Origin: a virus | IMG/VR virus record: IMGVR_UViG_3300032893_001259 | Coordinates: 1 to 40,693 of that record | Reading direction: 5' to 3' (one strand) | DNA length: 40,693 nt | Part shown: positions 37,503 to 39,500 of the stretch, one piece after another | Layout of the letters: every line of letters starts with the position of its first letter | Numbering within the stretch: position 1 is the first letter of the stretch | The notes under the pieces: generated by a model | Told to the model about the DNA's origin: nothing | The model's database searches: none | What the model saw: the letters and a program-made list of their open reading frames with translations, nothing else | Made by a program: the position numbers and the translations under genes

Positions 37503-37748
37503 ATGACGCGACTGACGCGCCGCCAATTGTATCAACGCCGGAGCGGCCTGACCCAGCGACAACTGGCCCAGGTGCTGGGTCTCTCCGTCGGTCAGGTGAA
37601 CGGCCTCCTGCAAGGCCACAAAGGCCGCGCGCCCCGGCCCCGCACCCGGCAGGCCATGCGCCGGATGGCGGCGCTGTTGGGCGTGAGTGCGCAGGCGCTG
37701 TGGGGGCCGCAGAGTTTGCGCCCGATCCGCTGGACCGAGTACCCCTAA
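37503..37748 (+). CDS. XRE-family (Cro/CI-like) HTH regulator
   Basis: An 81-residue DNA-binding protein. It has a helix-turn-helix LTQRQLAQVLGLSVGQVNGL at about 20-39 followed by LQGHKGRAPRPRTRQAMRRM and AALLGVSAQALWG, the usual end of this fold. ATG 37503 was chosen because upstream codons would lie over the promoter and operator. It stands first in the rightward arm, under a sigma70 promoter with an operator-like site, so it probably controls its own gene and, through the copy at 7410, the leftward island. There is no dimerisation domain as in CI, so it is closer to Cro in size. Confidence 0.8.
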   Translation: MTRLTRRQLYQRRSGLTQRQLAQVLGLSVGQVNGLLQGHKGRAPRPRTRQAMRRMAALLGVSAQALWGPQSLRPIRWTEYP

Positions 37749-37785
37749 TTTGCTGCACGCGATTGCAGCGCGGAGGACTGACCCG

Positions 37786-38328
37786 ATGGCCGATCCCGTT
37801 GTCGCTCGGACCACCCAGACCTACGCCCCGATCCCCGAGGGCGAGTACCAAGCCGTCTGCGTCGACGTCATCGACCTGGGCCGGCACCTGAACGAGCAGT
37901 ATGCCCAGATCCAGCCCAAAGTCGCGCTCATCTTTCAGCTCGTGGACGAGCACGGCGCGCGGCATGAGCTGGCCGAGTGGTTCACCGTCAGTATGGGCGA
38001 CAAGGCCCGACTGCGGGCCTTCCTCGAGCAGTGGCGGGGGCGGCGCTACACGCCGGAGCAGCTCGCGGCCGGCGTCCCGCTGGACAAGCTGACGGGCCAG
38101 AACGCCTACATCACCGTCCGGCACAATCGGGTCAACGACAAAGTGTTCGCCAACGCGTTCAATATCCGGCCGCTGGGCAAGCGCGACCCGGCGATCACAG
38201 CGACCGGCTACACCCGGGCGCCCTACTGGGAGACCGTCCGCGCCAAAGCGATTCCTGAGGACCCGTCGCCCGAGCCGGATACCGATGACGGGCTGCCGGC
38301 CGAGGACGATTCGGACCTAGCATTCTAA
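37786..38328 (+). CDS. single-stranded-DNA-binding-like protein
   Basis: A 180-residue protein; a GGAGG lies 9 bases before ATG 37786. The N-terminal ~130 residues are beta-rich (EGEYQAVCVDVIDLGRHLNE; QPKVALIFQLVDEHGARHEL; GQNAYITVRHNRVNDKVFAN), in line with an OB-fold as in the phage SSB-like group. The end is very acidic and finishes EDDSDLAF, like the acidic hydrophobic tip used by SSB proteins to recruit replication partners. Its role would be to coat ssDNA in replication or recombination. A decayed HNH reading frame follows in the same frame behind the stop. Confidence 0.72.
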   Translation: MADPVVARTTQTYAPIPEGEYQAVCVDVIDLGRHLNEQYAQIQPKVALIFQLVDEHGARHELAEWFTVSMGDKARLRAFLEQWRGRRYTPEQLAAGVPLDKLTGQNAYITVRHNRVNDKVFANAFNIRPLGKRDPAITATGYTRAPYWETVRAKAIPEDPSPEPDTDDGLPAEDDSDLAF

Positions 38329-38589
38329 TGCGACGCAGCCTACCACTTGTGCGGCAATCGGGCATGCGTCAATCCAGCGCATCTCGAGCCGGTAACGCCC
38401 AGAACCAACGTCCTGCGAGGGGAAGGCTTAACCGCTCGTCTCGCACGCGTGACACATTGCCCAAGGGGCCATGAATACACGGAAGCCAACACGCGCCACT
38501 ATGAAGGCGAGCGGCACTGCCGCGCATGCGCCCGTGAACGTCAACGCAGATTATTTGCGCAACGGCGCATGCGCGCGGGCACCCCGTGA
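38329..38589 (+). pseudogene. truncated HNH endonuclease remnant
   Basis: From the codon after the SSB-like gene's TAA, the same frame reads CDAAYHLCGNRACVNPAHLE, RTNVLRG, then HCPRGHEYTEAN and CRACARER. This is the second half of an HNH nuclease like that at 13301-13798 (there DHLCRNRVCVNPAHLE). The N-terminal half with AHR-type and GPIP segments is missing, Asp before the first His is replaced by Tyr, and no start codon fits except a TTG at 38347. It probably is a remnant left by deletion, not an active enzyme. Confidence 0.75.
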
Positions 38590-38969: not shown

Positions 38970-39011
38970 GAACCAGCAACAGATAGCGCCGTACGAAGCG
39001 GGTGGGCTGAA

Positions 39012-39128
39012 GGGGCATGCGTTATCTTCGGGAGATAAAGTCGCAAGCCTGGCAGGTGCGTGACCACCCGCGACACCGTTGGGAGATGGGCTGATGGGGT
39101 AGTGTTCTCCTTGCATAGACGCTGCCCC
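39012..39128 (+). ncRNA. possible structured RNA segment (tentative)
   Basis: Within the 203-base gap 38970-39172, GGGGCA (39012-39017) plus GCGT (39019-39022) can pair with ACGC (39119-39122) plus TGCCCC (39123-39128), a 10-bp closing stem with one bulged T. Inside are TTATCT/AGATAA (39022-39038, pentaloop; it shares T39022 with the closing stem) and GTCGC/GCGAC (39040-39074). A stem of joined ends with a bulge next to a Ro60-like gene is how Y RNAs look, but no conserved Y-RNA sequence was confirmed. It might be plain intergenic DNA. Confidence 0.28.
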
Positions 39129-39172
39129 GCAAACGTGACCGTTTCCTGTCACCGATCCACTTGGGAGTCGTG

Positions 39173-39500
39173 ATGTCGCAGCATAGTGCACTGGTCGGCC
39201 TCAGCCGGACTGCCACGCCGCAGGCAGAGCCCTTTCCTCCATGCGGCGGCGCAAGGGTTGGCGCTCGATGGGTTTCTACTGTACACGGACAACGAGACGT
39301 GGGCGGGGCAGCAGCATCCGGTCGAAGCACTCCGGGTCTACCGGCGTCAGCGCGCCGCGAAGCTCGTCAACATCGCCTTTACCGCAACGGGTTACAGCGT
39401 CGGCGACCCGGACGACGCTGGGACGCTCAACGTCGTGGGCTTCGATGACGCCGTGCCGCAACTCGCGGCCGACTTCGTGCGCCCCGGCTGGAGCCGCTAA
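39173..39500 (+). pseudogene. Ro60/TROVE (vWA domain) C-terminal remnant, frameshifted
   Basis: From ATG 39173 (GGGAG 5 bases upstream) the frame reads SQHSALVGLSRTATPQAEPF. After one extra base at 39236 the next frame continues LHAAAQGLALDGFLLYTDNE, TWAGQQHPVEALRVYRRQRA, AKLVNIAFTATGYSVGDPDD and AGTLNVVGFDDAVPQLAADF. This is the end of the vWA domain of Ro60/Rsr proteins (YTDNETWAG, HPVEAL, TGYS-xxDPDDAG, VVGFD). The whole RNA-binding TROVE ring and the first MIDAS motif (DxSGS) are missing. It may be a pseudogene, a sequencing indel in a CCCTTTCC run or a +1 shift site. Confidence 0.8.

Follow-up and report, generated by a model that had tools for sequence, protein, structure and literature searches.

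Both ends of a Ro60 gene lie next to each other in the window

The window, that is, the whole stretch of DNA analysed (40,693 bases), is a contig from an uncultivated virus, recorded in IMG/VR. At 39173-39500 it carries both ends of a Ro60 gene, whose middle is absent and whose frame changes between the two parts, and no second Ro60 copy is found in the contig. The features of the locus are:

38998-39071, + strand: leader hairpin 1, Y-RNA-like, outer stem GCGGGUGG/CCACCCGC (5'-half matrix; fold z -3.05, hairpin limits chosen after inspection)
39082-39146, + strand: leader hairpin 2, tandem copy of hairpin 1, outer stem GGAGAUGG/CCGUUUCC (repeat; fold z -3.73, limits likewise chosen after inspection)
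39163-39167, + strand: Shine-Dalgarno-like GGGAG, 5 nt before ATG 39173 (direct reading)
39173-39238, + strand: Ro60 N-terminus, frame 1, MSQHSALVGLSRTATPQAEPFP (N-terminal HMM of 12 relatives)
39230-39238, + strand: probable deletion joint, CCCTTTCCT (frames and homology limits)
39231-39500, + strand: C-terminal part of Ro60 vWA, frame 2, stop TAA at 39498-39500 (profiles and 2nvo match)

The frame 39186-39500 (+) belongs to the Ro60 vWA family, as had been proposed from its motifs YTDNETWAG, DPDDAG and VVGFD: it matches positions 80-165 of the 165 positions of PF25045 (vWA_Ro60; E 7.8e-25), PHROG_850 (E 2.9e-11), residues 445-531 of Deinococcus Rsr (2nvo; E 5.9e-19) and also animal Ro60. The segment matching PF25045, codons 39228-39497 (+), is the C-terminal half of the vWA domain and corresponds to positions 443-529 of 530 in a whole-protein profile of the relatives (E 6.5e-32). 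The preliminary description had extended the match over the last ~105 residues; the match stands but its length is about 87 residues, and the residues encoded by 39186-39227 do not match Ro60. The best matches of this tail among phage Ro60 proteins share 44-57% identity with it, and its closest cellular match, from Nocardia harenae, 62%. All the conserved C-terminal residues (TDNETWAGQ..H...AL..YR, later D, L, G and F) are retained, GC3 (0.82) resembles that of adjacent genes, and GC by codon position is gene-like. A complete vWA domain with its MIDAS (DxSxS, T, D) is absent: TDNE is kept, and DxSxS and the TDC segment, which holds the threonine, are missing.

The upstream frame, which starts at ATG 39173 and has, as already described, its own ribosome binding site, is itself the N-terminus of Ro60. 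Nearly all relatives start with a short leader followed by a motif of the TPQ-x-EP type, and this region of Ro60/Rsr is present in the ATG 39173 frame. When all 887 frames of at least 15 residues in the window were searched with an N-terminal profile of 12 relatives (10 of which reach the stop codon, L013 and L058 being cut by the contig or locus end), this frame ranked first with an E-value of 0.0018, the next one having 3.2. The aligned piece, LSRTATPQAEPFP, is short (13 residues). Translation from ATG 39173 would give 22 Ro60 residues and then continue out of frame to a stop at 39446-39448.

An HNH endonuclease C-terminal piece (38329-38589, YHLCGNRACVNPAHLEPVT) begins immediately behind the stop of the gene 37687-38328 and continues its frame; situated 0.6 kb upstream of the broken Ro60, it seems to be a further truncated gene.

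The change of frame is best read as the joint of an internal deletion

The N- and C-terminal matches meet within 8 nt, on one strand and in the right order, and are thus both ends of one Ro60 gene whose middle is missing. In agreement with the reported absence of the RNA-binding ring, the TROVE domain (PF05731, the RNA-binding HEAT-repeat ring) has no match anywhere in the contig. A single uninterrupted Ro60 frame is not present: the two parts differ by one base at CCC-TTT-C, and the joint can be read as GAG-CCC-TTT-CC from the N-terminal side or as CCT-TTC-CTC from the C-terminal side. In the relatives, 414-465 codons separate the two points, L010 and L012 being set aside because the motif was misparsed.

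The gene shares with bacterial and phage Ro60 (Rsr; PF05731, PF25045; PHROG_850) the TPQ-x-EP motif, the C-terminal vWA half and a structured leader upstream, but its central ~420 codons are gone, its frames are disjoint, and it has neither ring nor MIDAS DxSxS. In most relatives, moreover, both end points carry CCGAT (EPI and LPM; GAG-CCG-ATC and CTG-CCG-ATG), so that a short direct repeat is already part of the gene at these positions. A deletion between two such repeats, with an offset of one base, would produce an apparent +1 shift without any slip site. The shift had previously been ascribed to an error, to decay or to a real slip site; since the upstream frame encodes the start of Ro60, decay is the most likely of these options, in the form of an internal deletion joint rather than a point indel or a slip site.

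The CCC-T context is similar to that of known +1 slip sites. If programmed +1 frameshifting took place at CCC-TTT-C, it could yield a fusion of 22+87 residues that might serve as a decoy or as a dominant-negative partner for host Ro60. This reading would be consistent with the context at the joint, with the good ribosome site and ATG, and with a tail which, according to an AlphaFold model (mean pLDDT 78, TM 0.69 to the same half of 2nvo), could stay compact. As the alignment used for the model included full-length Ro60, this fold is expected and is not evidence that the half-domain is stable alone. A slip site does not, however, predict that the joint coincides with both homology limits; the Ro60 gene is in a single frame in all 12 relatives examined, where the slip site is not conserved; and half of the vWA domain is missing together with the MIDAS serines and threonine. 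Such frameshifting appears extremely improbable. Translation of the C-terminal part alone as a vWA half-domain is hardly credible at all: GTG 39186 opens the frame 39186-39500 and is the only frame-2 start before the joint, but it lies 18 nt from the closest ribosome site (GGGAG), no homology precedes 39228 and there is no internal Met. The earlier speculation that a stand-alone vWA remnant might be functional is thus unlikely, because the first half of the vWA domain, which carries DxSxS and the TDC threonine of the MIDAS, is gone, there is no usable start and, among 341 phage records (see below), short forms are not conserved. Even considered together, a programmed frameshift and a functional stand-alone tail have very little probability.

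The leader contains two tandem, Y-RNA-like hairpins

Each of the two hairpins has a stable stem with an outer helix of 8 bp and lies directly upstream of Ro60; the two outer helices differ in sequence and both pair. Hairpin 1 carries the 5' signature GGGCTGAAG-N7-CGTTATC at 39004, hairpin 2 has GGGCTGATG on its 5' side and CGTGACC on its 3' side, and a 13-nt direct repeat with a spacing of 84 links them. With a Y-RNA 5'-half matrix trained on the relatives only, position 39004 (+) has the highest score among ~81,000 positions of the window (18.9 bits, the next position having 15.8), and 39088 (+) ranks 23rd, both being within the 203-nt leader. In 2,000 Markov shuffles of the leader, no score as high as that of 39004 was obtained. 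GGGCYGAWG occurs twice in the contig, both times in the leader, this pattern having been loosened after the window was seen and both copies belonging to one repeat. The fold of the whole leader is unexceptional (z -0.34), only the single hairpins standing out.

In the phage set, Ro60 genes mostly have 1 to 3 Y RNAs upstream. A first covariance model, R1, built from nine Y RNAs, finds 23 Y-RNA elements in the relatives, of which nine had served to build it and the two or three with the lowest scores may be chance matches; a second one, R2, finds two or three elements near the Ro60 start in each of six further phage loci, two of which (L063 and L064) are near-identical there. Neither model has a significant match in the window: the best leader scores are 3.8 bits for R1 and 10 bits for R2, the latter on hairpin 2 (E about 3 over the window), versus 15-64 bits for the Y RNAs of relatives. 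An Rfam search, which also included the relatives, gave no match in the window, ARAGORN found no tRNA in the region, and a promoter scan found none.

The leader hairpins resemble YrlA (RF02553) and also the Y RNAs of phage Ro60 loci, which are shorter, by their position, their tandem copies and their outer stem, and share with phage and bacterial Y RNAs the 5' signature GGGC-YGAWG-N7-(N)GTTATC. They differ from them on the 3' side, where they have CGUGA instead of the element ACACCUU/CAC that precedes the outer stem. It seems fairly probable that they are diverged or decaying Y RNAs. A quite improbable alternative is that the Ro60 protein has been shed and that two Y-type RNAs with an altered Ro-binding loop work alone, for example as decoys occupying host Ro60.

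When inspected by eye, both hairpins have the layout of a kink-turn (3-nt bulge and tandem G-A pairs; 5' GG-GCU-GA, 3' UGA-CC). Tandem Y RNAs were also observed near phage or prophage-like Ro60 at loci L001, L003, L004, L006, L007, L012, L014 and L057, several of them having tRNA-like modules and falling below the Rfam YrlA cut-off or being called tRNA.

Ro60 is rarely truncated in phages, and NoodleTree provides a parallel case

TROVE proteins in phages are already documented (PMC7824862), in genome announcements too, and phage-borne Ro60 is in itself not new. Ro60 was found in 341 of 50,697 phage records, 339 of which keep at least 80% of it in one place. Short forms are thus not a conserved class, and the conserved short forms that could have been a sign of function do not exist in these other phages.

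One of the two exceptions is the Mycobacterium phage NoodleTree. Its genome is 99.6% identical to that of its sister Shelob, in which the Ro60 gene is intact, up to Ro60 codon ~107, beyond which it has lost the remainder of Ro60 together with several genes. The relic is unannotated (NC_054719.1, 129590-129910; 2492-2812 in our locus L063) and its Y RNAs are intact. NoodleTree is therefore a parallel Ro60 deletion, in an isolated and sequenced phage. As is probably the case in the window, Ro60 is truncated by deletion, and the upstream Y RNAs are kept; NoodleTree retains the N-terminal ~107 codons and has lost the C-terminus, whereas the window gene retains both ends.

In the Microbacterium phage SM23 (locus L062; PQ655446.1, 1193-2767), the annotation splits Ro60 into two genes on account of two frame changes, which together restore the frame and are possibly sequencing errors.

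The joint could also be a sequencing or assembly artefact or a minority variant, Ro60 being intact in the population and the joint coming from a chimeric read or a rare deletion molecule. The source, an uncultivated virus contig, would be compatible with this, as would the unworn look of the C-terminal part and the fact that no second contig carries the joint. Graph assemblers normally join across more than 20 shared bases. Judged from its sequence, the joint offers at most 8, and the same type of deletion is found in NoodleTree, so that this origin, which is the main alternative, appears unlikely.

Sister phages were sought with the terminase, the portal and a neighbouring gene, as well as with exact DNA probes, and none was close: identity reaches 43-44% with the best terminase and portal relatives, and the exact probes matched no other contig. 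Among the portal and terminase relatives, only one (G020) has a TROVE match, which is weak. The window neighbours of Ro60 were not found beside Ro60 in the relatives, and a search of plasmid DNA gave no match.

The two ends of the contig (1-1000 and 40430-40693) share one in-frame 12-nt tandem repeat, (ATxx)n, located within an apparent single DUF6745 gene (40151 to the end, then 2-1774) whose joined protein would exceed 770 residues. As both ends fall in the same repeat of one apparent gene, the genome is probably circular, almost complete in this contig and opened within the repeat.

A probable decaying Ro60/Y-RNA module

The best reading of the locus is a decaying Ro60/Y-RNA module, whose gene is, with a probability of about 0.8, a deletion derivative of a full-length phage Ro60. 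As no close sister phage was found, the intact ancestor has to be inferred. The phage would once have had a full-length Ro60 gene (Rsr-type TROVE-vWA) preceded by tandem Y-RNA-like hairpins. About 1.2-1.4 kb (about 414-465 codons) would then have been lost from inside the gene, and with it the ring and the N-terminal half of the vWA domain. The event was probably a recombination, or a slippage during replication, between short direct repeats of the CC(C)TTTCC type. It would have fused codon ~22 to the last ~87 codons with a register offset of one base. The C-terminal part, devoid of a proper start, would have neither the RNA-binding ring nor most of the MIDAS metal site. The Ro60 gene is thus most likely dead, and its decay would be recent, because the C-terminal codons retain the conserved residues.

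These results call for caution, as the joint of a large deletion can mimic a frameshift. The tandem Y RNAs of the loci listed above could form a new Rfam family, and the pattern of phage Ro60 genes behind tandem Y RNAs, several of which are missed at Rfam cut-offs, may be useful more widely. Finally, the window provides, beside NoodleTree, a second natural case of a phage apparently losing Ro60 by deletion. The two cases suggest that some phages, at least, can do without Ro60, and point to a fast turnover of the gene.
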